The position numbers and the translations under genes were made by a program. The notes under the pieces are model-generated. The model was not told the DNA's origin. It made no database searches and saw only the letters and a program-made list of their open reading frames with translations. DNA of 36,511 bases from Alphaproteobacteria bacterium (GTDB lineage Bacteria; Pseudomonadota; Alphaproteobacteria; Ferrovibrionales; Ferrovibrionaceae), in the NCBI GenBank assembly GCA_947473805.1, contig CANJGB010000032.1:1-36511 (forward strand). Reading direction: 5' to 3'. Numbering within the stretch: the stretch's first letter is position 1; the number at the start of each line of letters is the position of its first letter. Positions 5,523 through 20,465 of the stretch are shown here, piece by piece.

Positions 5523-8500
5523 TCAGCGGAAGTTACGGGCGCTGACGCGGATTTCGGAGTGTGTGCGCGGGTCGGGCCGCGAGCCGGTGCGGGCTTCGTC
5601 GCCACGGCCGGCGGCAAGGGGAAACGGGGTTTCGCGTTCGCCCACGCCAGCCAGCAGCGGCGAGAGGTCGAACAGTTCGCTGGCGAGGACGTGGATCACT
5701 TCCCGCACCTTCTGCACCTTGCCGCGGCAGGCCAGCATGCGGGCGGAAAGGATCAGCGGTTTCTGGCGCTCGAAATGATCGTTCCAGACGACGAGATTGG
5801 CGTGGCCGGTTTCGTCCTCGAGGGTGACGAACAGGATGCCGTTGGCCGAGCCCGGCATCTGGCGCACCAGGACGATGCCGGCAATGGTGATGGAGTCGCC
5901 GTCACGGGCGTCGAGCAGGGCCGCGGTCGGGCGGATGTTCCGCCGGTCGAGTTCGCCGCGCAGGAACGAGACGGGGTGCGCCCGGAGCGACAGCGTGACG
6001 GCGCGGTAATCCTCCACCACCTCGCGCCCGGCCGTCATGGGCAGCAGGGCCACCGTGGGTTCGACAACCATCGCCGTGGCGGCATGATCAAACAGCGGCA
6101 GGGGATTGTCGCGCAGCGCCTTGATCGCCCATAAAGCCTCGCGCCGCGCGAGGCCGAGCGACGGGCGGAAAGCGTCGGCCTCGGCCAGGCGATGCAGCAT
6201 CGCCACCGGCAGGCCGGTGCGCCGCCACATATCCTCGACGGAGGTGAAAGCACCTGCGACGCGCGCCATCACCACGGCTTCCGCATGCTTCTGGGCCAGG
6301 CCCCTGGCCATGCAGAGGCCGAGGCGCACGGCCAGGAACGCCCCATCCGTGGACTCCAGCGTGCAGTCCCAGGCGCTGGCATTCACATCGACCGGGCGCA
6401 CCTCGACGCCATGGTTGCGGGCGTCGCGCACCAGCTGTGCCGGCGCGTAAAATCCCATGGGCTGCGCGTTCAGGATGGCGCAGCAGAACACGTCGGGATG
6501 ATGGCATTTGAGCCAGGACGACGAATAGGCAAGCTGGGCAAAGGAGGCGGCATGGCTTTCGGGGAAGCCATAGGAGCCGAAACCCTCGATCTGCTTGAAG
6601 GTGCGCTCGGCAAAGTCGCGCTCGTAACCGTTCGCCAGCATGCCGTCGATCATCTTGGCTTTGAACTTGCTGACGCCGCCGGTCATCTTGAACGTGGCCA
6701 TGGAGCGCCGCAGCGCATCGGCCTCGTCCGGCGTGAAGCCGGCGCCGACAATGGCCACTTCCATGGCCTGCTCCTGGAACAGCGGCACGCCGAGCGTCTT
6801 GCCGAGGACGTCCTTCATCTCGGGCTTCGGATAACTGGGCTGTTCGATCCCCTCGCGACGCTTGAGATAGGGATGCACCATGCCGCCCTGGATCGGGCCC
6901 GGGCGCACGATGGCGACCTGGATGACCAAATCGTAGAGCGTCTTTGGCCGCAGGCGCGGCAGCATGGACATCTGCGCGCGCGATTCGATCTGGAACACGC
7001 CGACGGTGTCGGCCTTCTGGATCATCGCGTAGGTCCCGGCATCTTCCTGCGGGACGGTGGCCAGCGTCAGGGCCGCTCCCTTGTGCGCGGCCATTAGATC
7101 GAAAGCACGGCGCATGCAGCTGAGCATGCCCAGGCCGAGAATGTCCACCTTCATCATCTTCAGGATGCCGATGTCATCCTTGTCCCATTCGATGACCTGG
7201 CGGTCGGCCATGGCCGCCGGTTCGATGGGAACGAGATTGTGCAATGGCTCGCGGGATAGCACGAAGCCGCCGGGATGCTGGCTGAGATGGCGCGGAAAAC
7301 CGACCAGCTGCCGGGCGATTTTCAGGACAAGCCCCAGGCGGCGGTCGCGGCTATCGAGATTGGCTTCGCGCAGGGCCTTCCCGTCGATGCCGTCCTCGCT
7401 CCAGCCCCAGATCAGGCCGGTTAGAGCCCCCAGCACATCCTCGGGCAGGCCGAAGACGCGGCCAACATCGCGGATCGCACCACGGGCGCGGTAGCGAATC
7501 ACCGTGGCGCAAAGCGCCGCTTTGTCCCGCTGGTAATGTGCGTAGATCCACTGGATGACCTCCTCGCGCCGCTCATGCTCGAAATCAACGTCGATATCGG
7601 GCGGCTCATCTCGCGCACGGCTGAGAAAGCGGGAAAACAGCAGACGGCTCTCGGCAGGGTCGATGGCGGTAATGCCCAGCACGTAGCACACCGCCGAATT
7701 GGCGGCGCTGCCGCGGCCCTGGCACAGGATTTTCTGTGACCGGGCGAAGCGCACGATGTTGTAGACGGTGAGGAAATACGGCGCATAGGCCAGTTCGGCG
7801 ATGAGCGCCAGTTCCTTGCCCACCTGATCGCTGACCCTGGCGGGCGCCCCCGCCGGGTAACGTTGCGCCACGCCTTCCCAAGTCAGTTTTTCCAGCGCCT
7901 GCTGCGGCGTGAGGCCGGGCAACAAATCTTCATCGGGATACTGGTACTTGATTTCGAGCAGGTCGAACTTGCAGCGCGCAACGATTTCCTGCGTACGCTC
8001 CACGGCATCAGGGTAGCGGGCGAACAGGCGCGCCATTTCCGCCGGCGGCTTCAGGTAGCGGTCGGCATGGCGTTCCAGCCGGAAGCCTGATGCGTCGATG
8101 GTGCAGCGTTCGCGGATACAGGTCATCACGTCCTGCAGGATGCGTCGCTCGGGCACATGGTAGAGGACGTCGTTGGTGACGACGGTCGGCACGCGGGCAG
8201 CATGCGCCATGGCATCGAGACGATGCAGGCGGAGCGCGTCGCCCGGGCGGCGGCGGAGCGTCAATGCCAGATAGGCGCGGTCGCCGAATGCGGCATGCAG
8301 GTCGCGCAGGCGCGCAGCCAGCACGTCATCGGGCCGGTCGGGCAGCAGGATGCAGAGCAGCCCCTCGCCCCACTGCACCAGGTCGCCCCAGCCGAGATCG
8401 CACTTTCCCTTGCCGGCACGCCCCTTGCCGATGCTGAGCAGGCGGCACAGACGGGAATAGGCGGCGCGGTCGGTGGGGTAAACCAGGACGGAGAGATCGT

Positions 8501-8711
8501 CGCGCAGGTCGAGACGGCAACCGATGACGAGACGCAGGCCGGTTTCCTCCGCCGCCTTGAGCGCACGCACCATGCCAGCCAGCGTATTGCGGTCGACAAT
8601 ACCCAGCGCCGGGATGCCGAGTTCCTTCGCCGCGTAAAACAGTTCGTCGACGGCAGACGCGCCGCGCAGGAAACTGTACTGGGTGGTGACCTGAAGCTCG
8701 GCGTAGTTCAT
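5523..8711 (-). CDS. dnaE2: Error-prone DNA polymerase DnaE2
   Basis: A 1062-residue C-family polymerase, the catalytic member of the ImuA-ImuB-DnaE2 translesion mutasome. It opens with [17 protein letters not shown], the start of the PHP domain. The palm carries [15 protein letters not shown] near residue 370 with the paired catalytic aspartates. The [24 protein letters not shown] block and a C-terminal OB-fold ([25 protein letters not shown]) follow. The ATG at 8709-8711 overlaps the imuB stop as ATGA, so the frame upstream of it is not used. His residues common at the beginning of the PHP domain are Gln and Ala here. It is the last gene of an SOS-controlled operon. Confidence 0.95.
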
Positions 8712-10243
8712 CCGAAGAAGCCATGGATGAACCAGCGCATGGAGCCGGTGGCGGGCGTCGCGCCATCGCCACGACGGAACAGCCAGAAGCGCCGCCCCTG
8801 TACGTCCTCGACCTGGAAATAATCGCGGATGGCGATGACCTCGTCGCGCGCCTTCCACCATTCGCCATGGACACGCTCGGGCCCATCGGCCTTGCGGATA
8901 TCGAAATGCCTGCCGCGCCAGGTGAACCGTACCGGCGGATGGTCGGGCAACAGGCCGAGGGTCTCCACCGGCTCCGGGTTTTTCAGCAGGCGCGCGGGGC
9001 GCGGCAGATGCGCCGGCCAGGCCTTGCCGCCGGGACGCGCCAGCGGTGCGATGCGGCCCACCGCGCGTTCCGGCACATCGCTTTCCACCGGCGCCAGGCG
9101 ATAGACGCGGCCGGCGCCGAGCCTAGCAACGAGGCGATCCACCAGCGCGGCCATGTCGGGCACCGGGACCTCGCCCCCCAGACGGCCGGCGATCTGCTGC
9201 GCGCCAAGCGGATCGGTGCGGAGCGCCAGCAGAATCATCACCTCGACGCCGAAGCCGGGCTCGACGGTGCCAAGTTTCTCCGCCAGCAGGCGCATGAGGT
9301 GGCGTCCGTCGCGCGTGGGCGCCGCCGTGCCGATGCGGATGAAGCAGTCGACGCCATCGACGCGGCGGAACAGGAGATCGAGCCGGCGCACGCCGCGACC
9401 GGCGGCGCCCAGCTTGCGGCACAAAGTGGCGACAAGGCTTTCCATCGCGGCCGTCAGGCTTTCGGCCGTCAGCAGCGGTTCGACGAAGGCCAGGCGCACC
9501 TGCGGCACATCGGGCGGCAGGAAGGGTTGCAGCGGTTCGGCGGCGCGGCCCAGCGCCTGGTCGAGACGCAGGGCGATGGCGGGGCCGAAGCGCAGGACCA
9601 AAGGGGCACGCGGCAAGGGGTAAAGCGCCGCGATGCGCTCGATGCCGAGCAGGCGCAGGCCATCGAAAATGTTGGATGGCAATCGCAGCGCGGCGACGGG
9701 CAGGTCGGCCAAGGCTTCGCGGGTGCCACCGGGCGGGATGATGGAAAGATCAGCAGCACCATGCCGCGCCACGGCCCAGGCGGCGGCCGGCGTGTCAGCC
9801 ACGGCGGCGCGGGCCGCGAGGCCGAAGCGGCGCACGCGGGCCAGCAGCGTTTCGAGCAGCCGGGTTTCACCGCCATGGAGATGGGCGACACCCGTAATGT
9901 CGAGCAGCAGGCCGTCATCGCCATCGGGCGCGACGACGGGGCTGTAGCGCTGCACCGCCCAGGTCGCCAGGCGTTCCAGCCCCACGCGATCGGCAACAGG
10001 ATCGGCAGGGATGGCCACCAGATCGGCGGCGAGGATACGCGCCTGGGTAAGATCGAGGCCGGGATAAAGACCGCGTGTACGGGCCTGCGCATCGACCGCG
10101 GTGACGACGTCGCGCGCCGCCTCGCGCAGGAAGATGACGACGGGCCGCGCCGCACCCTTAACCGGCGACGCGGAAGTACGTGCTGCCTTCCGCAGCCGGT
10201 CGGTCGGCCAGGTCGGCAGGTAGAGCGAGACGACCCTCGGCAT
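8708..10243 (-). CDS. imuB: ImuB, Y-family polymerase-like mutasome protein
   Basis: A 511-residue protein with Y-family architecture. It begins [16 protein letters not shown], where active Y-family polymerases have an Asp-containing metal motif, so it lacks the catalytic carboxylates as ImuB proteins do. The little-finger region and the conserved ImuB C-terminus ([18 protein letters not shown], ending in WFIHGFFG) are present. In known systems ImuB is the hub that binds the sliding clamp, ImuA and DnaE2. The start is the ATG at 10241-10243, which lies inside the 3' end of imuA (86-base overlap). The stop overlaps the dnaE2 start by 3 bases, indicating coupled translation. Confidence 0.92.
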
Positions 10244-10904
10244 TGCAAGCCTCCATGATCCATGACGCAGGTTCACCGCCACGACAGCGCAACAGGTCAA
10301 CCTGCCAGCGCGCGCGTTCGATGCCGGGGACCGGCAAAAGACCCGATGGCACATGCGCGATGCGCCAGCGGGTGACGGCCGCCGACGGTTCGCCCTCCGC
10401 ACCGGCCTTGCCGCGACGCAGGACGAAACCGGTTACGCCGGTCGAGAGCGCCGCGAGTTGCAGGCGGCGGCTGGCGGTCATGCCCATGCGGCCCACCTCA
10501 CCCACCACGGCGGCAAGGCCGGCGTGACGCAGCCCCTCTTCCATGACGAACAGGACCTCGTCGTCGCTGGCGGCATCCGCATGCAACACGTGATCGGGGG
10601 CGAGGCCCGCCTGTGCCAGAGCCGGGCCGAACACGTCGCCCGCCCGGCCGCACCACAGGACGGGACCGCCGAGGCGCGCGACAATGCCGGCGGCGAACAG
10701 GGTGGCCGGACCGTTGCTGCCGGCCGCATCCTCGCCACCGATCTCGTGCAATGCGGCGCGCGCCAGCCCGCCACCCGGCAGGACATCGTCCAAAGCCGGT
10801 ATGTCGAATGGCAAAGCGGGGGTGCCGGCCGCCACGACGCCACGCGCCAGATGTTCGATCCGGGCACGCAGGTCCGGCGACACGATGCCAGATCGTGCCT
10901 TCAT
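10158..10904 (-). CDS. imuA: ImuA, RecA-like/SulA-like mutasome protein
   Basis: A 248-residue member of the ImuA family, distantly RecA-like, and the first gene of the mutasome operon. Visible features are an N-terminal FDIPALDDVLPGGGLARAALHEI segment, a central strand pattern (FAAGIVARLGGPVLWCGR), RLQLAALSTGVTGFVLR, and a C-terminus with the [11 protein letters not shown] element typical of ImuA. ATG 10902-10904 is preceded by AGGAG on the minus strand. A LexA box lies 24 bases upstream of the start codon. In Myxococcus and mycobacterial work ImuA-like proteins support DnaE2-dependent induced mutagenesis. The assignment rests on these features and on gene order. Confidence 0.9.
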   Translation of the reverse strand: MKARSGIVSPDLRARIEHLARGVVAAGTPALPFDIPALDDVLPGGGLARAALHEIGGEDAAGSNGPATLFAAGIVARLGGPVLWCGRAGDVFGPALAQAGLAPDHVLHADAASDDEVLFVMEEGLRHAGLAAVVGEVGRMGMTASRRLQLAALSTGVTGFVLRRGKAGAEGEPSAAVTRWRIAHVPSGLLPVPGIERARWQVDLLRCRGGEPASWIMEACNAEGRLALPADLADRPAAEGSTYFRVAG

Positions 10905-10928
10905 GCTCCTGTTCCGTGCGGTTTCTGT

Positions 10929-10943
10929 GTTCCTATTTTGTTC
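10929..10943. promoter_or_regulatory. LexA (SOS) box GTTC-N7-GTTC
   Basis: An exact direct repeat GTTC-CTATTTT-GTTC, the established alphaproteobacterial LexA operator, read as GAAC-N7-GAAC towards imuA. It covers the -10 region of the imuA promoter. A further GAAC at 10950-10953 and an imperfect half site at 10911-10925 flank it. Confidence 0.85.
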
Positions 10944-10992: not shown

Positions 10993-11889
10993 TTATTTGT
11001 ACTTGAGCAGCTTCTCGACGATGGTGCCGAGGTCGTCCCAGCGCTTGCAGTAGTAATAGAGATAGAGGTGCACGATGGTGGCACCGGCTTTCTCCAGCGC
11101 GGGGATCTGCGCCAGCGACGCGTCGAGATCGACGCTACCGTCACTACGCTTCACGGGGATGATGCACCCGCGCACCTGCAAGCTCGACGGGTCGCGACCG
11201 TGACGGCGCATCGAATCCTTGATCGCCTTCACGCCTGACGCCAGCACATCGGGCGCGACGGGCACCGGGCACCACGCATTGCCAAGGCGGCCGATGCGTT
11301 CCACGTTGCGCTCGCTGGCCGGCAGGCCGATCCACACCGGGATGCCGCCGGCCTGCACCGGCAGCGGCAGGGAATAGAAATCCCTGAACGTCACGCGGCG
11401 GCCGGAATAACTGGCCGGCGCACCGCCCCACAAAGCGCGGCAGACCTCGATCTGCTCCTCGAGGTCGGTGTAGCGGCCCTGGAAGGGAATGTTCGACGCG
11501 GTGTATTCCGCCTCCTGCCAGCCGACGCCGAACGCGGCATCGAGGCGGCCCTTGGAGATGACGTCGAGTGTCGCGAGCTGCTTGGCCAGCAGGATGGCCG
11601 GACGCAGCGGCGCGACGAGCACGTTCATCGACAGGCGGATGCGCTGTGTCACCGCCGCGATGGCGGAGAGCGTGGCGATGGGCTCGTAATAGGCGAAGTC
11701 GATGGCGAACGGAAAGTTGGACCCGGTCGTCAGCTTGGCGGCATAGGCGTCCGCATTCATGCCGAGATGGTCGGCGATGGTGACCTGGTCGATGCCGCGC
11801 TCGTCAGCGAGGCGTGCGGCTGCCATCAGGGTGTCGAAGCCGCTGCCCAGTTCGTGGACGCCGGTGAGGTTCAGGGCGATCTGCGTCAT
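10993..11889 (-). CDS. LLM class flavin/F420-dependent oxidoreductase
   Basis: A 298-residue luciferase-like TIM-barrel oxidoreductase. TLDVISKGRLDAAFGVGW at residues 108-125 is the LLM signature, and IPVWIGLPASERNVERIGRLGNAW is the typical strand and phosphate-binding segment of the shorter, F420-like subgroup. The shorter length and the N-terminal HLGMNADAYAAK region set it apart from the other two LLM proteins of the window. Its ATG is 10 bases after the stop of the preceding LLM gene, so it is probably translated from the same transcript. The ribosome site is weak. Flavin type and substrate are not determinable here. Confidence 0.85.
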   Translation of the reverse strand: MTQIALNLTGVHELGSGFDTLMAAARLADERGIDQVTIADHLGMNADAYAAKLTTGSNFPFAIDFAYYEPIATLSAIAAVTQRIRLSMNVLVAPLRPAILLAKQLATLDVISKGRLDAAFGVGWQEAEYTASNIPFQGRYTDLEEQIEVCRALWGGAPASYSGRRVTFRDFYSLPLPVQAGGIPVWIGLPASERNVERIGRLGNAWCPVPVAPDVLASGVKAIKDSMRRHGRDPSSLQVRGCIIPVKRSDGSVDLDASLAQIPALEKAGATIVHLYLYYYCKRWDDLGTIVEKLLKYK

Positions 11890-11899
11890 GACGGACAGA

Positions 11900-13138
11900 T
11901 CAGGCGGACAGCGCGTTCTCGCGGATCACGCCGCGGGCGTCGAACGACTGGCCCTGGGGCGGGCGCAGCTCGCGCAGGCGCGGCATCACCTCGCGCGAGA
12001 ACAGGTCGAGATTGTCAACCGTGTCCTCGTGTGACAGCGTGCCGCCATGGGCCAGCGCGATGAGATGGCCGAAGCCGCCGACATGGTCGTACATGCGCTT
12101 GATCTGCTGGAACACGTCATCCGGCGTGCCGGCATAGGCGAGGCCCGCATCGACGAGATCCTCCATCGACGCCGTGGAGGTATTGATGGGCGTGCCGTCG
12201 GTCTTCTTCACGATGAGATGGTCCTGCGCGATGCGCGCACCGCTGGGGCGCTGCAAAGCCGCGGCATTGGCCTCGGGCGGGAACAGGCCCGGCGGGTTCT
12301 GGAAGGCCGGGTTCACGATGGACGCAGACTCGAGATAGCCCTTCACCTTGGCCAGTTTCGCAAAGCCCTCGGCGCGCGTGCGGCCAATGGCGAGCATGGC
12401 GAGATAACCGAAGCGATCGAGGTTGGGCTCGGGCCGGCCGAGCTCGGCGGTGCGCTTGCGATAGGCCTCGAACATTTTTTTCGCGTTGTCGCGGCTGAAC
12501 ACGGTGGCGATGGTGTGACCGCACTCGGCCACCGGGATGGCCGTCGCGGCGTTGCCGGCGCTGATCCACACATTGGGGCGCGGCTGCTGGTACGGACGCG
12601 GCCAGATGTTCACCTGGCGGTGATGAAAATGCTGGCCTTCCCAGTTGAACGGGCCGTCATGGGTGGTGAGCGCCTTGAGGATGAGGTCGTGCGCTTCCCA
12701 GAAGCGGCTCATGAGATCGACGGGGTTCGAGTTCTGCGCCGAAATCTCGTAGGCGATACCCTTGATGAAACCGATCTCGGTGCGGCCGCGCGACAGCACG
12801 TCGGCATAGGCCAGTTCCTCGGCGATGCGCACCGGGTCGGGCCGGTGGCAGATCGGAATGCCGAGCGTCAGCAGGCGCGCCTTCTTGGTAATGCGCGCCA
12901 GAATCGACAGGTTGTTGAGGCACGAGACACTGAGGCACGTCGCCGTGCTGTGGTGCTCGTTCAACATGATGTCCCAGCCGAGTTCGTCGGCGGCCATGTA
13001 TTCGTCGTAGTAGCGGTTCAGCAGGTCGGCCCCGATCTTGGGATCGAAATGCTTGCTGGGCAGCGTCACGCGCAGCGTGACCGGATCGGCATCCCAGGCC
13101 TGAGGATAGGGCTGCTCGGAAATGAACCATGCGCGCAT
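11900..13138 (-). CDS. LLM class flavin-dependent oxidoreductase
   Basis: A 412-residue luciferase-like monooxygenase. The EHHSTATCLSVSCLNNLS stretch (residues 61-78) and YADVLSRGRTEIGFIKG (111-127) are characteristic of this LLM group, and PNVWISAGN is the later barrel strand. The ATG at 13136-13138 overlaps the stop of the alpha/beta hydrolase by one base (TGATG) and has AAGGAG seven bases upstream. It is preferred to the GTG three bases earlier. The coupling to a hydrolase suggests that an ester or lactone formed by oxygenation is opened next, or the reverse order. That is inference. Confidence 0.87.
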   Translation of the reverse strand: MRAWFISEQPYPQAWDADPVTLRVTLPSKHFDPKIGADLLNRYYDEYMAADELGWDIMLNEHHSTATCLSVSCLNNLSILARITKKARLLTLGIPICHRPDPVRIAEELAYADVLSRGRTEIGFIKGIAYEISAQNSNPVDLMSRFWEAHDLILKALTTHDGPFNWEGQHFHHRQVNIWPRPYQQPRPNVWISAGNAATAIPVAECGHTIATVFSRDNAKKMFEAYRKRTAELGRPEPNLDRFGYLAMLAIGRTRAEGFAKLAKVKGYLESASIVNPAFQNPPGLFPPEANAAALQRPSGARIAQDHLIVKKTDGTPINTSTASMEDLVDAGLAYAGTPDDVFQQIKRMYDHVGGFGHLIALAHGGTLSHEDTVDNLDLFSREVMPRLRELRPPQGQSFDARGVIRENALSA

Positions 13139-13962
13139 CACGCAACTCCTTCCGGTTTGGCCTGCCGCGCCGGCGCGCCGGCGACCTGCCGCACGGCGCG
13201 CGCAAAGGCGGCCGGCTGCTCGACATGGACGAAATGTCCGGCCCCTTCGACCACGGTGAACTCGGCGCCGGGGATGGCGGCGGCATAGCGACGGCCGCCC
13301 TCAGCGCTGATGACCTTGTCCGCGCCGCCCCAGACGACGGCGGTCGGCACCTTGATGCGCGGCAGCCAGCGGCGGATGCGCGGATTGTGCATGTACGGCT
13401 TCCAGCCGAAGAGCGTAATGGATTCACGGGACCGCGTGACGCCGACGACATCGGCCACGGGCCACTTCGAGAAATCGGGGCGGTACTTGTCAGGCTCGGC
13501 GAAATACATGTCGGGCCAGTCATTGGCGCGGATCGTGTAGAAGTCGAAGAAGTCGCGGTCCTCGCGGCCGCCGGGCTTGAAGCCGAGCGGCGCCGCCAGC
13601 GCCAGCGCACTGAACCGTTCCACCGAACGCACCGCCATCTCGACCGCGATCCAGCCGCCGAACGACGCGCCGGCAAGCACCGCGTCCTCGAGGCCAAAGT
13701 GATCCGCCAGTTCGAGGTAGAAATAGGCAAGGTCGTCGATCGACGTCATGTCGGCGGGGAGGTCCGAACCGCCAAAGCCAGGATGCCAGGGCGCGATGAC
13801 GCGGTGGGTCTTCGCCAGTTCGGCAAGATAGTCAGTGCCGTAGACGTCGGGCCCCTCGCCCGCGTGAAGAAACAGCAGTGGACGGCCGCTGCCGCCCTCC
13901 AGTACGTCCAAGCCGATACCGAGGATATCAAGCCGGTGGCGACGAAATTCCACACCGCTCAT
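13138..13962 (-). CDS. Alpha/beta hydrolase
   Basis: A 274-residue alpha/beta-hydrolase fold protein. The nucleophile elbow GASFGG has Ser at about residue 100. The acid is Asp215 in WGGADKV and the base His243 in GAGHF. PLLFLHAGEGP at 28-38 forms the oxyanion region, with HAGEG in place of the common HGxPG. The ATG at 13960-13962 is chosen because the family core starts right after it and the promoter and operator found upstream end before it. The frame stays open further upstream but that stretch overlaps the promoter. It is the first gene of a three-gene unit with two LLM oxidoreductases. Confidence 0.87.
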   Translation of the reverse strand: MSGVEFRRHRLDILGIGLDVLEGGSGRPLLFLHAGEGPDVYGTDYLAELAKTHRVIAPWHPGFGGSDLPADMTSIDDLAYFYLELADHFGLEDAVLAGASFGGWIAVEMAVRSVERFSALALAAPLGFKPGGREDRDFFDFYTIRANDWPDMYFAEPDKYRPDFSKWPVADVVGVTRSRESITLFGWKPYMHNPRIRRWLPRIKVPTAVVWGGADKVISAEGGRRYAAAIPGAEFTVVEGAGHFVHVEQPAAFARAVRQVAGAPARQAKPEGVA

Positions 13963-13975
13963 GGAAACAACTCTG

Positions 13976-13990
13976 TTCTGTAATTCGGAA
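13976..13990. promoter_or_regulatory. IclR-type operator candidate, copy 1 (TTCTG-TAATT-CGGAA)
   Basis: An imperfect palindrome with one mismatch between the arms, placed 8 bases downstream of the hydrolase operon -10 box. Read in the direction of transcription, 14 of 15 bases are identical to the site in front of the IclR gene at 19632. A neighbouring near-palindrome, GAAACGTTTTC (13988-13998), overlaps the presumed start point. Confidence 0.65.
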
Positions 13991-13998
13991 ACGTTTTC

Positions 13999-14027
13999 AT
14001 TATATCGAACACCCAATGGCCGTGCAA
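13999..14027 (-). promoter_or_regulatory. Promoter of the hydrolase/LLM operon
   Basis: On the minus strand a perfect TATAAT (14004-13999) is preceded by TTGCAC (14027-14022) at 17 bp. The start point would fall near 13992, next to the operator. The region lies between the DUF35 stop and the hydrolase start. Confidence 0.6.
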
Positions 14028-14035
14028 CGCCGTGC

Positions 14036-14461
14036 CTACTTTGCCGGCAGGCGCGCGGCATAGAGCGGGCCATCCTCATAGGCGAGGGTCACCAGTTCGA
14101 CCTCGCACCCGAGAGGCGGCGGTTCATCCATGCCGATCAGCCGTGTCGCGATGCGCGGGCCATCGTGCAGATCGATGATGCCGAGGCGAAATGGCAGTTC
14201 AGCGGCAAAATAAAACGCCGCCGCATTGACCACCGACTGCGAATAGAGGATGCCGCGGCCGGAATGGGCCAGCCAGTCGGTGTTCGGCGCCCAGCACTCC
14301 GCGCAGATGCGCTTGGGCGGAAAGCTCATATGGCCACACTTCGGGCACTTCGTGATCATGAAGCGGCCGTCGAGCAGGCCCTGCCAGAAGGTCTGCGTGA
14401 AGGCGGTCACGCGCGGCGGATAGGCGCGTTTGCCGGGCCGGGCGATGATCTCGAGCGTCAC
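14036..14461 (-). CDS. Zn-ribbon/OB-fold (DUF35) protein, partner of the thiolase-like protein
   Basis: A 141-residue DUF35 protein. The N-terminal zinc ribbon has Cys39-x2-Cys42 and Cys53-x2-Cys56 (KCPKCGH and CAECW), followed by an OB-fold (GILYSQSVV, RIATRLIG, CEVELV). The start is GTG at 14459-14461, overlapping the thiolase stop in GTGA. DUF35 proteins pair with thiolase-like proteins. In actinobacterial steroid side-chain degradation the Ltp2-ChsH2 DUF35 pair forms a retro-aldolase, and others support acyl transfer. The genetic coupling here strongly suggests a physical complex with the upstream protein. The chemistry remains to be shown. Confidence 0.87.
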   Translation of the reverse strand: MTLEIIARPGKRAYPPRVTAFTQTFWQGLLDGRFMITKCPKCGHMSFPPKRICAECWAPNTDWLAHSGRGILYSQSVVNAAAFYFAAELPFRLGIIDLHDGPRIATRLIGMDEPPPLGCEVELVTLAYEDGPLYAARLPAK

Positions 14462-15672
14462 CGCCCCGCCTCCAGCACATGGACGCTGGCGCCGCTGAAA
14501 TTGCCGAGTTCGGACATCATGGCGCCGATGGTCGCATTCTTCACCTGGCGTGCACCGGCCTGGCCGCGCAGCTGCTCGACGAGCTCATACACGCCGTAGA
14601 GCGGTGTGAGATAGGCGGGATGGCCGCGCGAAATCGGTGCTCCCGAGGTGTTGATCGGAATGCGGCCGCCGAGCCGGGTTTCACCCTCGACCGCCAGCTG
14701 CGCACCCTTGCCGCGCGGCGCGAAGCCCATGGCCTCGCTGGCCAGTACCTCGATGATGGTGGAACCGGCATAGAGTTCGGCCAGCGACACGTCGGCCGGC
14801 GTGATGCCCGCCTGCGCGAAGGCATCCTGCGCCGAGCGCGCGCACGACGCCATGGCCAGCATGTCGTTCGGCACTTCGCTGATTTCGTGCACGCCCTCGT
14901 GATAGAAGCCGCGACCGGTAACGCGCGCATAGGGCTTGCCAAGACTCTTGGCGATTTCCTCGCGCGCCAGAACCAGGCAGATCGCACCATCGGCGGGAAT
15001 GGCAAGCTCCAGCAGGCCCATGCCATCGACCAACGGCGCCTCGGCCAGGATCTGGTCGCGGGTGAAGGGCGTGCCGCGGATCGACAGCGGGTTCAGCGAA
15101 CCGTGCCAGTGATCCTTCACCGCCACGGCGGCGAGCTGTTCGCGCGTCGCGCCGTATTCGTGGAAGTAGCGCGCCACGTCCATGCCGTACCAGACGCGCG
15201 GCGTGAAGCCGAAGGGGGCATGGAAATCGACATCGCCGTTGGAGCGCATCTGATAGGCGAGATGCGTTGTACGCGGCACCGCGGTCTCGACGCTGATGCC
15301 CAGCGCCAGCGCGACATCGGCGACGCCGGAGGCGACCTGCATGACTGCCTGATCGAAAGCGAGGCCCCCGGTCATGCCGTTGCCGATCACCTCCATGACC
15401 ACACCCGAGCAACGCAGGCGCAGGTAATTGGCCATGAAGGTCGCGAAGTAGCGCTGCTTGGTATAGGTGCGCGGATGCGTAAATATGAGGGAATCGATAT
15501 CGGACTTGCCGATACCGGCCTCGGCCACCGCGCGAACCACAACGTCAGCCAGGATCTCGTGTTCGACGGTCTGGATCTCGGCTTCGTCCGGCGTCTGGAA
15601 GCGGCTGCATGGCAGGGCCGCCTGCCCGATCACGCAGACGTTCCTGATGCCACTCCGGTCCGAACGATCCAT
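14458..15672 (-). CDS. Thiolase-like protein without the usual catalytic cysteines (SCP2-thiolase/Ltp-like)
   Basis: A 404-residue thiolase-fold protein. The N-terminal nucleophile Cys position of true thiolases falls in GNGMTGG (residues 97-103), which has no Cys. The C-terminal GHP with His351 is kept, but the later Cys-x-Gly region reads GAMMSELGN, again without Cys. It is therefore unlikely to be a standard acyl transferase and resembles the lipid-transfer/aldolase branch that works with DUF35 proteins, such as Ltp2. ELYAGSTIIEVLASEAMGF is the conserved C-domain segment. It starts 16 bp after the binding-protein gene and overlaps the DUF35 gene by four bases. The gene order suggests cleavage of a CoA-bound intermediate. 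Confidence 0.85.
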   Translation of the reverse strand: MDRSDRSGIRNVCVIGQAALPCSRFQTPDEAEIQTVEHEILADVVVRAVAEAGIGKSDIDSLIFTHPRTYTKQRYFATFMANYLRLRCSGVVMEVIGNGMTGGLAFDQAVMQVASGVADVALALGISVETAVPRTTHLAYQMRSNGDVDFHAPFGFTPRVWYGMDVARYFHEYGATREQLAAVAVKDHWHGSLNPLSIRGTPFTRDQILAEAPLVDGMGLLELAIPADGAICLVLAREEIAKSLGKPYARVTGRGFYHEGVHEISEVPNDMLAMASCARSAQDAFAQAGITPADVSLAELYAGSTIIEVLASEAMGFAPRGKGAQLAVEGETRLGGRIPINTSGAPISRGHPAYLTPLYGVYELVEQLRGQAGARQVKNATIGAMMSELGNFSGASVHVLEAGR

Positions 15673-15688
15673 TACGCGACCCTGCAGA

Positions 15689-16651
15689 TCAAGGCTTCAG
15701 CAGGCCCTTGTCGGCGAGGCCTTTCCACTGCGCGGCCTCGTCCTTGATCAACTTGGCGAATTCGGCAGGGCTGCTGGGATTCGGTTCGTAGCCCAGCTGG
15801 CGGATTTTTGCCTGCACATCAGGCGAGGCCAGAGCCTTCTGCATCGCGCCGTTCAGTTTGGTGATTGCCGCGGCCGGCGTGCCGACCGGCGCGGCGAGGC
15901 CGGTCCATATGGTGGAAACAAAATCCGGCAGGGTAGCTGAGGCAACCGGCACACCTGGCAGGCCGGCATAGGGCTTGAAACCCGTGAGCGCGAGCGGGCG
16001 CAGTTTGCCTTCGTCGATATACTGCTTGAAGGGACCGATCGAGCTGATGCCGTACTGCACCTGGTTGGCAAGCAGAGCCTGGATCGCCGGCGCGGCGCCG
16101 CCATAGCGCACCAGTTCAGTCTCGATGCCGGCCTTGTAGTTGAGGAACTGGTTGGTGATCAGATCCGTGCCGCCCTGGGCGCCGAAGTTCAGCTTGCCGG
16201 GATTCTTCTTCGCGTATTCGATAAATTCCGGAAAGGTCTTAACCGGCACTTCCGAATTCACGGCGATGACCAGATCGCCGATGCCAATGATGCTGATCGG
16301 CGCGAACTTCTCCGCCAGGTCCTTCTGCACGGCCGTATTGATATACGGAAGCGTGGTAACGGTGTTGGTGGTCAGCATGAGCGTGTAGCCGTCGGCATCC
16401 GACCGCACCGCGAACTCATAACCGATCTGGCCGCTGGCGCCCGGCTTGTTGTCGACGATGATGGGCTGCCCCAGCGCCTGGGACATCTGGTCGCCGATCA
16501 ACCGCGCCACCGCGTCAGTCGGGCCGCCAGCCGCCAGCGCGACGACGATGCGAATTGGCTTCTCGGGATACTCGGCGCGCGCCTGTGGGGCCGACAGCGC
16601 AACACCGGCGGCGATCACGGCGGTACTGAAGAACGCATATGGACGCATCAT
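15689..16651 (-). CDS. Tripartite tricarboxylate transporter (Bug/TctC) periplasmic binding protein
   Basis: A 320-residue Bug family solute receptor. It has a signal peptide of about 26 residues (MMRPYAFFSTAVIAAGVALS, cleavage after ARA) followed by YPEKPIRIVVALAAGGPTDAVAR, the hallmark N-terminus of TctC-type proteins. It also has VDNKPGASGQIG and the C-terminal LGYEPNPSSPAEFAKLIKDE. Of the clustered ATGs I choose 16649-16651 because GGGAG then lies at normal distance, and ATG 16655-16657 is too close to it. TctA and TctB membrane partners are not nearby, which is common for this family. The position directly ahead of the thiolase-like gene suggests it binds the pathway substrate, probably a carboxylate. 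Confidence 0.9.
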   Translation of the reverse strand: MMRPYAFFSTAVIAAGVALSAPQARAEYPEKPIRIVVALAAGGPTDAVARLIGDQMSQALGQPIIVDNKPGASGQIGYEFAVRSDADGYTLMLTTNTVTTLPYINTAVQKDLAEKFAPISIIGIGDLVIAVNSEVPVKTFPEFIEYAKKNPGKLNFGAQGGTDLITNQFLNYKAGIETELVRYGGAAPAIQALLANQVQYGISSIGPFKQYIDEGKLRPLALTGFKPYAGLPGVPVASATLPDFVSTIWTGLAAPVGTPAAAITKLNGAMQKALASPDVQAKIRQLGYEPNPSSPAEFAKLIKDEAAQWKGLADKGLLKP

Positions 16652-16721
16652 CTTCATCTCCCTAGCGGCATTGAAATGACCCCTTTGCGGGGATTTCGAC
16701 GGATCAATTGCCTGCGCCATG

Positions 16722-16750
16722 AATAAAGCAAAGGGCGAAGCGCCGCGCCC
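16722..16750 (-). terminator. Intrinsic terminator after the IclR pair
   Basis: On the minus strand GGGCG (16750-16746) pairs with CGCCC (16737-16733) and is followed by a T-rich tract TTTGCTTTATT. It sits about 60 bases beyond the stop of the downstream IclR gene and ahead of the binding-protein gene. Confidence 0.5.
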
Positions 16751-16809
16751 GGTGTTTTTATCGCCGGGCCAAATTACACAAGGATGGAAATTGCCAATCC
16801 GTCAGTCCT

Positions 16810-17613
16810 TTACTCCCAGTACGGTATGCCATCGAGGGGCAGAATGACGCTGTCGGGGTCGAGATGGGCGAACGGCGAGAAGTGCAGGCGCGGCTCGGCG
16901 GCAACCTGATCGCGAAACTCACCCACCAAGTCCAGCCAGGCCTGTGCAGGGTCGCCCACAGACGGCATTTCGATAACCAGTGCCGCAAAGGCAGGTTCAT
17001 CCACGCCACCTATAGCGAAAGCTATAGCCGGCGGGCGGCGGCCGGTGACGTCGGCCTTGGACGCGAAGCCGCGCCGCCGGATCGTTGCGGCGAGTTGGGC
17101 CAGCCCCTCGGATTTTCGTGCCCAGTGGCGGATTGTGAAAGCAGACAGGCGATCCAGGTCGGCATCTGGCAAGGTCGCAATGATGGCCAGTCCGGCGCGG
17201 GTTGCGTCCATCGGCAGGGTGACCCCGAGCGGGGCCCGGTTTACGACGGCGCTGGCGCCCTCGATCGCGGCGATGCGAACGACATGCCAGCCGACACGCA
17301 CCCAGAGCGAAGCGGTCTGCCCGGTGGCCGTAGCCAGACGGCGCAAATGCGGCATGGCGGCATTGCGCACGGGAAAGCCAGCGAAGAAGGAGAAGAACAG
17401 ACGACGGGTCAGCGGCCCCAGAACGTAGCGTGACGAATTGCCATCGGTCGCGATCATGTCGCTGCGCTCAAGCGAAGCCAGGCCGCGATGGGCCGAACTG
17501 ACCGGCATGCCGAGCCTGAGGCTGACCTCGGCGACGCCGACCGGCGCCGCGCTGCGACCGACGAGATCGAGAATGTCGAAAATCCGCCGCGACGACGGGC
17601 TGATATCGCTCAT
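16810..17613 (-). CDS. IclR-family transcriptional regulator (second of a coupled pair)
   Basis: A 267-residue IclR protein. The N-terminal winged helix (residues 7-60) reads RRIFDILDLVGRSAAPVGVAEV and then LGMPVSSAHRGLASLER. The GAF-like effector domain runs from about 80 to 250, with the PMDATRAGLAIIATLP and IRRRGFASKADV segments of the family. Its ATG overlaps the stop of the preceding IclR gene (ATGA), so the two are translated together. It lies upstream of the Bug/thiolase/DUF35 genes on the same strand with a terminator between. Regulation of these genes is likely but not proven. Confidence 0.88.
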   Translation of the reverse strand: MSDISPSSRRIFDILDLVGRSAAPVGVAEVSLRLGMPVSSAHRGLASLERSDMIATDGNSSRYVLGPLTRRLFFSFFAGFPVRNAAMPHLRRLATATGQTASLWVRVGWHVVRIAAIEGASAVVNRAPLGVTLPMDATRAGLAIIATLPDADLDRLSAFTIRHWARKSEGLAQLAATIRRRGFASKADVTGRRPPAIAFAIGGVDEPAFAALVIEMPSVGDPAQAWLDLVGEFRDQVAAEPRLHFSPFAHLDPDSVILPLDGIPYWE

Positions 17614-18464
17614 GCGATTTCCATGTCGTCATCGACATCGACCATCGAGCTCGCCGGGATCAGCCGGGTGCGGTCGTTCAGGTCGTGCATCAGCTGCGTC
17701 ATGCGCGGCATCAGATCGCGCACCCGCGCCTCGGTAAAATGCTCGCGCGGCCCGCCGACGGTCAGCGCACCGTGCGGCAGGCCCTCGGCATCGAGAATGG
17801 GGAAGGCGATGTAGTCGGCATCGAAATAGGCATAGTCCTGGAAGCTGCGCGCGAAACCGCGCTGGCGGATGCCGGCGATCTCCTCCCAAAGCAGTGCAGG
17901 ATCGGTAATGGTATGTTCGGTGAACCGCTGCAGCGGCGACGCGTGGGCAATGTAGGTTTCGATCTGTTCGTCCGGCAGGAAGGCAAGGATCACGCGGGCG
18001 GACGGCGTGACATGGAGCGGGATTTTACCACCCCAGGAAATCCGGCTGACGCGGACGCCGCGCCCTTCGATGCCGTCGATGGTGATGAAATGGCGGCCCA
18101 TGGCGACGCCGAACGACACGCTTTCGCCGGTCAACGCCTGCATCGCCTGCATGGTGGCGAACACCAGGCCCCTGATATCGGCGTCCGGCGCATGAGGATT
18201 GCGGAACTCCAGCACCCGGAAGCCGAGATGGTAGCGCGAGCCGCTGGCATCGCGAATCAGATAGCCCTGTTCGTTCAGCACGCCCAGCGCCCGGAAGGCC
18301 ATGTTTTTGCTGATGCCGAGTTGCCGCGCCACCTCGGTCACGCCGTGGCTGGTCGTGCCGCGGGCAAACAGTTCAAGCACGCGCAGCATGCGTACGACGG
18401 ATATGTTGACCGCCGAACCTGACCCGGTTTTTCCGGCTTCATCGCGCGGCAGGGCTGCGGGCAT
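17610..18464 (-). CDS. IclR-family transcriptional regulator (first of a coupled pair)
   Basis: A 284-residue IclR protein. The helix-turn-helix covers VVRMLRVLELFARGTTSHGV and then VARQLGISKNMAFRALGVL (about residues 23-63). The effector domain includes LHVTPSARVILAFLP and IRQRGFARSFQDYAYFDADY. An N-terminal extension of about 20 residues and an acidic tail (VDVDDDMEIA) are present. It is transcribed divergently from the SDR gene, with a 197-bp gap. Two IclR regulators coupled head-to-tail is unusual and suggests that they act as a pair, possibly as mixed dimers. That is speculation. Confidence 0.88.
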   Translation of the reverse strand: MPAALPRDEAGKTGSGSAVNISVVRMLRVLELFARGTTSHGVTEVARQLGISKNMAFRALGVLNEQGYLIRDASGSRYHLGFRVLEFRNPHAPDADIRGLVFATMQAMQALTGESVSFGVAMGRHFITIDGIEGRGVRVSRISWGGKIPLHVTPSARVILAFLPDEQIETYIAHASPLQRFTEHTITDPALLWEEIAGIRQRGFARSFQDYAYFDADYIAFPILDAEGLPHGALTVGGPREHFTEARVRDLMPRMTQLMHDLNDRTRLIPASSMVDVDDDMEIA

Positions 18465-18611
18465 CAGTTATCCGGGATAGAGCTGAGGAACAGGCCGTCG
18501 GCAGGACCGCCGGGGCCCGGTGCTTCTAACATGCGGGCGCGGCGCGGCGCCACGGCAGCGGGCGTTCCAGCGGGCTGGAAAGCCGGCGGAAGTACGCAAG
18601 ACCCTTGCTCC

Positions 18612-18646
18612 GGGGCGAACCTGTAGCGAGGATTCGCCCCCTTTTT
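18612..18646 (+). terminator. Terminator-like hairpin in the leader of the SDR gene
   Basis: A perfect 8-bp repeat, GGGGCGAA (18612-18619) and TTCGCCCC (18633-18640), with a 13-base loop is followed by CTTTTT. It has the form of an intrinsic terminator but stands only about 15 bases before the SDR start with no plus-strand gene upstream. Attenuation, an operator or chance are all possible. Confidence 0.4.
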
Positions 18647-18661
18647 CAGATGAGGCGCGAC

Positions 18662-19519
18662 ATGCTGGACCTGAACGAAATACCTGGTGCGAAATCCGGC
18701 GGCCGCCTGGCGGGCAAGGTGGCGCTGATCGTCGGCGCCGGCTCGTCGGCCTCCGGCTGGAGCAACGGCAGTGCGGTCGCCGCGCTGTTCGCCCGCGAGG
18801 GCGCGGCGGTCGCCGCCGTGGATGTCAGTGCGGACGCGGCCGAGGAAGTGCGCGAGGCCATTGTGCGCGCCGGCGGGCGCTGCATCGCGCTGGTCGCCGA
18901 CGGCACGAAGAAGGACGAGATCGCCCGCGCCGTGGCGCAATGCGTCGCCGAATTCGGCCGTGTCGATATCCTGCACAACAATATGGGCGGCAGTATTCCC
19001 AGCAAGGTGCTGGATTCCACCGAGGCCGACTGGCGCTTCGTCCTGGACCGCAACCTGACGGCGGCCCTGTTTGCCTCGCAGTGCGTGTTGCCGGTGATGG
19101 TGAAGCAGGGCAACGGGTCGATCATTCACATCAGCAGCAACGCGGCCGTCGCCTATCCGCGCCTGAACATGGTGTCTTATTCGGCGGCCAAAGCCGGCCT
19201 GCATGCGCTGAGCCGCGCGGTGGCGATGGAATACGTTACGGCGGGCATCCGTTCGAACTGCATCATCCTGGGCCATATCGACACGCCGGAGATTCGCCGC
19301 CGCGCGCTGGAGCGGTTCGGCGCCGACAAACTCGAAGAGGTGATGACGGCGCGCGCGTCGATTATCCCGATGAAGCGGGTTGGCACGGTGTGGGAGGTCG
19401 CCCATGCGGCAGTCTATTTCGCCAGCGACGAATCCGGCTTCGTGACCGGGGCAGAGTTCATCATGGACGGCGGGACCTCGATCCCGGTCGTGGAGTCCTA
19501 TCCCGACAAAGTTAAGTAG
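18662..19519 (+). CDS. SDR family NAD(P)-dependent oxidoreductase
   Basis: A 285-residue short-chain dehydrogenase. The cofactor motif is the extended form VGAGSSASGWSNG (24-36). NNMGG at 106-110 replaces the common NNAG. The catalytic residues are Ser158/159 (HISSN) and Tyr173-x3-Lys177 (YSAAK). TGAEFIMDGGTS near the end is the usual C-terminal motif. ATG 18662 has GAGG six bases upstream, and the frame is open to earlier ATGs at 18605 and 18650 that are less well supported. The gene stands alone between divergent IclR regulators, so IclR control is likely. Substrate unknown; an alcohol or hydroxyacyl intermediate would fit the neighbourhood. Confidence 0.87.
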   Translation: MLDLNEIPGAKSGGRLAGKVALIVGAGSSASGWSNGSAVAALFAREGAAVAAVDVSADAAEEVREAIVRAGGRCIALVADGTKKDEIARAVAQCVAEFGRVDILHNNMGGSIPSKVLDSTEADWRFVLDRNLTAALFASQCVLPVMVKQGNGSIIHISSNAAVAYPRLNMVSYSAAKAGLHALSRAVAMEYVTAGIRSNCIILGHIDTPEIRRRALERFGADKLEEVMTARASIIPMKRVGTVWEVAHAAVYFASDESGFVTGAEFIMDGGTSIPVVESYPDKVK

Positions 19520-19540
19520 GCCCGTCATTCCGGCACGGAT

Positions 19541-19570
19541 TTGACACTCAGTTTCTGTGCGTGCTATTTT
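19541..19570 (+). promoter_or_regulatory. Promoter of the IclR gene at 19632
   Basis: A perfect -35 box TTGACA (19541-19546) and a -10 box TATTTT (19565-19570) are 18 bp apart. The predicted start point is near 19577, immediately before the operator. Confidence 0.65.
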
Positions 19571-19580
19571 ATAGATAGAT

Positions 19581-19595
19581 TTCCGAAATACAGAA
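19581..19595. promoter_or_regulatory. IclR-type operator candidate, copy 2 (TTCCG-AAATA-CAGAA)
   Basis: An imperfect palindrome located 10 bases after the -10 box. In transcription direction it equals the site of the hydrolase operon in 14 of 15 positions, with one more matching base on each side. The location suits autorepression by the IclR protein encoded next. Confidence 0.65.
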
Positions 19596-19631: not shown

Positions 19632-20465
19632 ATGCAGAGTGCTGCCGTCAAAAGCGCCAAGCGGACCATGGAGATTCTCGAGCTTATGGAGTCCGTGCGC
19701 GGTCCCGTAAGCCTGAAGGACGTGTCTTCCCGCCTGGGCTATCCCATCTCGAGTTCGTCGGTGCTGCTCAAGAGCCTCGTCTATTCGGGCTACCTGCACT
19801 ACGACCGCTTCACCCGGACTTACGTGCCGACGACCCGCCTGACAGCTTTGGGCAACTGGGTGCCGGATTCCCTGTTCGGCACGACAGGCCTGCCGCAGGC
19901 GATGAAAGCCATTCACGAAACGTGCGGCGATTGGATCGCCGTTGGCGCCATGGCGGATGCAAGTGTGCAGTACCTGCACGTGGTTGGCCCGCACCGGCAG
20001 GGCCGGATAAAATCGGGCGCCAGCCATCCGCTGACCGATTCCGCACTGGGCATCGTGCTGCTCGGTGGCCTGGGTGACCGCGCCGTCGAGGCTGTGTGGC
20101 GGCGCACCCGCTATCTCAGCGGTGACGGTGCGAGCGGAAGCTATGAGACATTGGCCGGCGAAGTGGCCAAGGCAAGGGCAACCGGGCACGCCTTCGTCAC
20201 CATGGGCGACGGAGTGGCCAGCCTGGCCATGCGCATTCCCGGCGAATGGCACGGGCGCATGCTGGGCCTCTGTATCGAAGGTCCGGCCACCAGTCTCGAA
20301 GCCCGGCGCACGGCGTTGGTCGCGCTGATGCGCGACGAGCTGCAACGACTGGGACGACCACGCCGGACCGGCGCCCCCGTCGCGGCCGAGGAGTCCGCCA
20401 TCGTCGGGCCGCTGTCCCGGCCGGCCGCGCGGCCCCTTCAAAGCGCCGAATCAGTCGCTCGCTAG
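19632..20465 (+). CDS. IclR-family transcriptional regulator, probable regulator of the hydrolase/LLM operon
   Basis: A 277-residue IclR protein. The helix-turn-helix covers SAKRTMEILELMESVRGPVS and then LGYPISSSSVLLKSLVYSGY (about 8-54). The effector domain holds HPLTDSALGIVLLGGL and AKARATGHAFVTMGDG. A Pro/Ala-rich tail of about 35 residues follows the domain. The start has a GGGAGGGG ribosome site. Its own promoter and the promoter of the hydrolase/LLM genes carry the same palindrome at the same place. This makes it a better candidate for controlling that operon than the two other IclR proteins, although these are not excluded. Confidence 0.9.
   Translation: MQSAAVKSAKRTMEILELMESVRGPVSLKDVSSRLGYPISSSSVLLKSLVYSGYLHYDRFTRTYVPTTRLTALGNWVPDSLFGTTGLPQAMKAIHETCGDWIAVGAMADASVQYLHVVGPHRQGRIKSGASHPLTDSALGIVLLGGLGDRAVEAVWRRTRYLSGDGASGSYETLAGEVAKARATGHAFVTMGDGVASLAMRIPGEWHGRMLGLCIEGPATSLEARRTALVALMRDELQRLGRPRRTGAPVAAEESAIVGPLSRPAARPLQSAESVAR

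Follow-up and report, generated by a model that had tools for sequence, protein, structure and literature searches.

The window analysed here, a 36,511-nt stretch of contig CANJGB010000032.1 (assembly GCA_947473805.1) from an alphaproteobacterium of the Ferrovibrionaceae, contains a catabolic gene cluster in which two promoters share a 15-bp palindrome. One promoter drives an operon for an alpha/beta hydrolase (ABH) and two LLM-class flavin oxidoreductases (hydrolase-LLM-LLM operon), and the other drives the IclR-family regulator gene at 19632 (IclR1). It is well supported that the two promoters have a tandem operator of the IclR family in common. The tandem gene pair IclR3-IclR2, located between the two sites, could quite plausibly encode the repressor of both the operon and the 19632 gene, and appears a likelier binder than IclR1 itself. 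The operators and promoters are as follows:

13976..13990, minus strand: primary operator TTCCGAATTACAGAA, serving the hydrolase-LLM-LLM operon and centred 21 nt ahead of its start codon at 13962
19581..19595, plus strand: primary operator TTCCGAAATACAGAA, serving the IclR1 gene and centred 44 nt ahead of its start codon at 19632
13999..14027, minus strand: hydrolase promoter TTGCAC-17-TATAAT, read by eye
19541..19570, plus strand: IclR1 promoter TTGACA-18-TATTTT, from the promoter scan
13995..14009, minus strand: secondary operator TTCGATATAATGAAA, over the -10 box, its centre 19 bp away from that of the hydrolase primary operator
19562..19576, plus strand: secondary operator TGCTATTTTATAGAT, over the -10 box, its centre 19 bp away from that of the IclR1 primary operator

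The two primary sites, TTCCG-AATTA-CAGAA (13990-13976, minus strand) and TTCCG-AAATA-CAGAA (19581-19595), stand as they were given in a previous sequence-only reading of the window. They lie 5.6 kb apart and are identical at 14/15 bases, with a common T ahead of TTCCG and a common C and A behind CAGAA; the best 19-mer match between them is 17/19. When the promoter stretches were compared, the best 17-mer identity was 16, whereas among 150 dinucleotide shuffles a single one reached 15 and the rest did not exceed 13. The genome scan proposed in that reading gave a divided result. The loose motif TTCYG-N5-CRGAA was not rare, occurring at 23 places in the 3.3-Mb genome versus 10 for the reversed pattern, but the AT-core pattern TTCYGWAWTAYAGAA with at most one mismatch was found at the two window sites only. 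Eight places elsewhere in the source genome matched TTCYGWAWTAYAGAA with two mismatches; all five of those examined fell within open frames of 432-685 codons, and the two-mismatch place L111 is near the 5' end of its open frame.

Both sites have the same orientation to their promoters, 8 bases (hydrolase) and 10 bases (IclR1) past the -10 box, as previously described. The hydrolase promoter combines TATAAT (14004-13999) with a weak -35 box (TTGCAC, 14027-14022; 3/6 matches, spacer 17), and it was not listed by the promoter scan, which took at least 4/6 matches in each hexamer. The IclR1 promoter combines TATTTT (19565-19570) with a perfect TTGACA (19541-19546, spacer 18). The hydrolase primary operator would occupy about +1 to +20 of its promoter. 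The proposal that the sites connect two transcription units within a single catabolic cluster was also supported.

A like operator is present in G077, a genome belonging to another family of the class. In the class sample, relatives of LLMb, the oxidoreductase whose gene overlaps that of ABH, were found at E <= 1e-60 in 15 of 384 other genomes, and ABH lay beside LLMb at all examined loci. Tandem homologs of IclR3 and IclR2 stand beside ABH-LLMb in three genomes, G077, G371 and G201, which represent 2 genera (G371 and G201 being of one genus); these were also the only genomes among 385, besides the window's own, with an IclR3 match at E <= 1e-30. The G077 homologs are 35% (IclR3) and 34% (IclR2) identical to the window proteins, and the operator lies in the divergent region between IclR3 and ABH. 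A symmetric matrix derived from the two window sites alone was applied to the promoter stretches of ABH at 28 homologous ABH-LLMb loci. It reached 20.35 at G077 (locus L063) and at most 12.9 at the other 27 promoters; 20.35 was not attained by any of 20,000 random stretches of 280 nt drawn from the other loci. Hydrolase starts in this scoring were mostly BLAST match starts; those of four loci were set by hand (match start 7198 vs 7200 for L090, L091 and L094; 10734 vs 10800 for L065). In the 14-kb L063 the three best places were 3681, 1192 and 3700, the last being 19 nt from the first. Across the whole of G077, the pattern TTCYGWAWTAYAGAA, which was devised with L063 already known, matched with at most one mismatch at two cluster sites only. 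The pattern TTC-N6-ACAGAA, made of the nine bases outside the -10 box, was present at four places in 30 loci totalling 521,993 bases; two of these are in the window, one is the hydrolase promoter of G077 and one lies elsewhere. Searches of G077 for IclR1 homologs, at E <= 1e-10 and at 1e-25, reported none. In these and the following searches the candidates scored per genome numbered at most 17 or 6 (IclR1), 6 (IclR3, phylum sample) and 4 (LLMb), so that absences are not proof.

The second G077 copy of the operator lies ahead of an SDR gene, on a TTGACA-16-TATAAT promoter that points leftward. This promoter faces an open frame (L063 862-1168) that by eye resembles a broken transporter binding-protein gene. 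The hydrolase promoters of G371 and G201 (L064 11190-11270 and L065) carry, by eye, an inverted repeat TGACTAT-N22-ATAGTCA, which is not the operator.

Each window promoter also bears a weaker site 19 bp from the primary one, a feature absent from the sequence-only reading. A four-site matrix was constructed from the primary sites, two from the window and two from G077. Its five best places in the 36.5-kb window were the two primaries, a coding place (2977), 19569 and 14002; the last two lie over the -10 boxes, at a distance of exactly 19 nt from the respective primary. In 2000 shuffles of the flanks, the score observed at +/-19 was reached 0 times for the hydrolase site, 4 times for the IclR1 site, twice for the G077 hydrolase site (also partnered at 19 nt) and 60 times for the fourth site. 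When any spacing of 18-22 was allowed, the corresponding counts were 9, 14, 6 and 284. A 'third box', TGAAA-N4-TTCYG, had been considered as well; this pattern was out of register with the sites and uninformative, and was dropped in favour of the 19-bp tandem test. With ten training-repeat loci left out, the best outside match of the tandem model was at L019 (1479/1498). These two positions, in genome G044, form a palindrome-like pair 19 nt apart at the start of a distant IclR gene.

The available parts of the survey by Suvorova and Gelfand (PMC8222616) describe a WTT-11-AAW subgroup of group-1 IclR sites with the core TTYCRYW3RYGRAA and the full form WTTYCRYW3RYGRAAW. Compared by eye with this consensus, each window site agreed at 13/15 inner positions and at 14/17 with flanks. 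In the same survey, tandem sites 18-22 nt apart occur in 94 of 181 orthologous groups, without being obligatory, and are interpreted as dimers bound on the same side of the DNA, a layout described for IclR tetramers; the 19-nt spacing, seen at the two window promoters and the hydrolase site of G077, falls inside this interval. Published site centres lie mostly 20-80 nt before the start codon and most often at -22; the window centres of -21 and -44 are within this range. That the sites look like IclR-type operators, as assigned from the sequence alone, is supported by the agreement with 13/15 core positions, the tandem spacing and the like operator in G077.

The genes of the cluster are listed below:

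10993..11889, minus strand: LLMa, second LLM oxidoreductase, TIGR03619 above cut-off
11900..13141, minus strand: LLMb, LLM-class flavin oxidoreductase, 4-nt overlap with ABH
13138..13962, minus strand: ABH, alpha/beta hydrolase, opening the hydrolase-LLM-LLM operon
14036-14461, minus strand: ChsH2/OB protein, rest of the cluster
14458-15672, minus strand: thiolase-like protein, rest of the cluster
15689-16720, minus strand: TctC binding protein, rest of the cluster
16810..17613, minus strand: IclR2, downstream member of the tandem IclR pair, 4-nt overlap with IclR3
17610..18464, minus strand: IclR3, leading member of the tandem IclR pair
18662..19519, plus strand: SDR oxidoreductase upstream of IclR1, start codon uncertain (open reading frame from 18605)
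19632..20465, plus strand: IclR1, the regulator named in the sequence-only reading

Three IclR genes lie within 3.7 kb, and the two between the sites had gone unmentioned before. The N-terminal HTH_IclR domain (PF09339) was above cut-off in all three proteins. IclR_C (PF01614) was above its cut-off of 24 bits in IclR2 (38.6 bits) and IclR3 (90.9 bits) and slightly below it in IclR1 (20.3 bits, E = 0.00044). Among solved structures, LLMb had general luciferase-like relatives only (best 7bip_A, E 3.3e-12), and ABH had none at E <= 1e-15. A flavin oxygenase followed by a hydrolase would suggest a pathway of oxygen insertion into a ketone and ring or ester opening. The OB-protein and TctC families presumably correspond to COG1545 and COG3181. 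The available parts of the survey (PMC8222616) associate both COGs with aromatic metabolism and transport genes of IclR regulons.

These features suggest a possible mode of action. At each promoter the strong 15-bp palindrome and the weaker one 19 bp off, about two helical turns away and on the same face, would together cover the DNA between the -10 box and about +20. An IclR-type regulator might bind this tandem operator, either as two dimers or as a single tetramer, and block RNA polymerase, which would imply repression rather than activation, and a pathway compound could act as the effector that releases the regulator. The regulator would most likely be the product of IclR3-IclR2 (16810-18464). 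By controlling both the hydrolase-LLM-LLM operon and the third regulator, IclR1, the pair could form a small hierarchical catabolic regulon.

The sequence-only reading had taken the 19632 protein for the probable repressor of itself and the operon. One part of this stands, in that its own promoter bears the site; its role as the binder became doubtful, given the three IclR genes, the G077 operator beside homologs of the pair, and relatives of IclR1 near sites of another type. The pair is favoured because the operator in G077 adjoins its homologs, without a reported IclR1 homolog. The loci of IclR1 homologs, 20 of which were fetched from 36 homolog places listed, also bear on this question. The ABH-LLMb pair was missing from all 20 (at L152 there is an LLM match of 23% but no hydrolase), and no IclR1 homolog above about 40% identity was found. 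The four-site matrix scored at best 14.5 there, and the best two places per locus included no such operator at an IclR start. A different motif, TTCAYATATGTGAA, was present at at least 13/14 positions at 8 of the 20 loci (reversed control 0/20; ABH-LLMb loci 0/29), namely at L138 (9982, 10849), L139 (6587), L141 (1143), L145 (9516), L147 (9749, 9770), L135 (13898), L149 (5531) and L150 (14131). Three of these eight are source loci of the motif, with sites 18-52 nt before the IclR start. The HTH of IclR1 is 39-56% identical to those of eight relatives compared, and by eye the recognition helix is much alike in several homologs near TTCAYATATGTGAA-type sites. TTCAYATATGTGAA is thus a candidate motif for the IclR1 subgroup in the class. 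This evidence weighs against IclR1 as the binder, not finally, and IclR1 may perhaps read the window operator.

Several observations weigh against the pair and in part favour IclR1. IclR regulators usually control themselves together with one or two adjacent operons, according to the available text of the survey (PMC8222616), yet the promoter region of IclR3-IclR2 has no such site in the window (best score 1.3), and it is the promoter of IclR1 that does. The G077 site overlaps its -10 box (TTC-TATAAT-ACAGAA), and its likeness is inflated because part of the site is the box itself, with nine bases outside the box still matching the window sites. G371 and G201 have the pair beside ABH-LLMb without a recognisable operator (score 5.6), so that the comparative argument comes from a single outside genome. 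The matrix that scored the secondary sites had been trained on the primary sites of these very promoters, and the partner of the second G077 copy is weak, as its 60 of 2000 shuffles indicate. In the source genome, a paralogous ABH-LLMb pair (L072 8944-12672) is followed by a diverged IclR1-like gene (31%) and a TctC gene. The motif TTCAYATATGTGAA was itself derived from upstream stretches of five of the 20 loci (L008, L009, L015, L017 and L027); without these, it remains at 5/15 loci, three of them of one genus, and those five sites are 3.7-5.9 kb from the IclR gene. Because TTCAYATATGTGAA is absent from the source genome even with one mismatch allowed, IclR1 requires a different site and may have changed its specificity. 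Control of itself and the operon by IclR1 through both sites, with a specificity that has drifted from that of its relatives, is nevertheless a doubtful reading, considering the like operator in G077, the absence of the hydrolase-LLM pair from all 20 homolog loci and the similar recognition helices near TTCAYATATGTGAA-type sites.

Other arrangements of the same genes were given less weight. IclR3 and IclR2 might form a mixed oligomer on an asymmetric operator, with one dimer type for each half, 19 bp apart, and IclR1 under its control; this is unlikely, and if true would amount to a three-regulator IclR circuit with a hetero-oligomeric repressor. Competition of the pair and IclR1 for the same tandem operators, each reading one of two pathway signals, seems quite unlikely: three IclR genes in 3.7 kb and the differing sequences of the strong and weak operator halves would fit it, whereas the candidate motif of the IclR1 type differs. 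Binding of the sites by a regulator from a different family, with its gene elsewhere, is highly unlikely. Short palindromes do serve many families, and IclR binding here is predicted only, but the sequence class, position and 19-bp tandem spacing resemble the IclR operators in the available parts of the survey (PMC8222616), and a recurring IclR gene pair is alongside. Least probable, and only remotely so, is a chance likeness of two AT-rich promoter stretches. The 23 genome places of the loose motif would favour it; the 16/17 identity reached in 0/150 shuffles, the restriction of the AT-core pattern within one mismatch to the two window sites in 3.3 Mb, and the like site in G077 argue against it.

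Wider searches delimited the distribution of these genes. An IclR3 match at E <= 1e-30 was found in none of the 398 genomes of a phylum sample except the window's own. At E <= 1e-35, 116 relatives of G077 yielded no further IclR3-type gene, and 116 relatives of G371 yielded one in G201 only. In the named genome collection, no close relatives of the 19632 protein were found; an LLMb scan of this collection returned ABH-LLMb on three short contigs, all lacking an IclR match, and the named LLMb relatives were alphaproteobacterial assemblies with 49-50% identity. Plasmid relatives of LLMb were found in 10 records (Sinorhizobium, Rhodococcus and Pukyongiella), and in all five records fetched ABH lay beside LLMb, while IclR matches at E <= 1e-5 were absent. 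On plasmids, IclR3 and IclR2 had weak relatives, of about 34% identity at most. A scan of viral contigs found nothing.

Elsewhere in the window, at 5523-10943, a DNA polymerase III alpha-type gene was observed with two open reading frames upstream. Together they look like an imuA-imuB-dnaE2 mutagenesis cassette, although the two open reading frames had no Pfam match at 1e-8. One copy of GTTC-N7-GTTC, presumably the LexA-type box of the class, precedes the polymerase gene (10929-10943; 0.85 expected by chance).

If the proposed control is correct, the catabolic cluster becomes a testable regulon with exact candidate sites, and the motif TTCAYATATGTGAA is a by-product for the IclR1 subgroup. The case also illustrates that it can be misleading to name the closest gene that looks autoregulated as the binder, since comparison across genomes points to the other IclR pair. 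The kind of system is already known. For the pairing of the operator with a recurring IclR tandem pair, searches of the open-licence literature found no earlier description, and the literal site strings did not occur there either. The closest counterpart is the group-1 WTT-11-AAW type in the available parts of the survey by Suvorova and Gelfand (PMC8222616), which the window sites resemble in a 15-bp palindrome of the TTYCR-N5-YGRAA kind at promoters, a centre of -21 at the hydrolase (published -22) and a tandem spacing of 19 (published 18-22). They differ from it in the half-sites TTCCG/TTCTG (2/15 off consensus), in having C instead of W as the outer base on one side, and in the weakness of the second site. 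As with PobR, PcaU, HmgR and TphR in the same text (PMC8222616), the regulator gene adjoins a catabolic operon; unlike these systems, the window has three IclR genes, two of them a tandem pair, and the operator belongs to an operon of a hydrolase and LLM flavin oxidoreductases. Finally, the available account of PheR from Sphingobium sp. SHPJ-2 (PMC13273656) describes an IclR repressor with a footprint from +23 to -21 of its target promoter, approximately the span of the window tandem operator, whereas its core, GCAACG, is unlike the window sites and its effector is phenanthrene.

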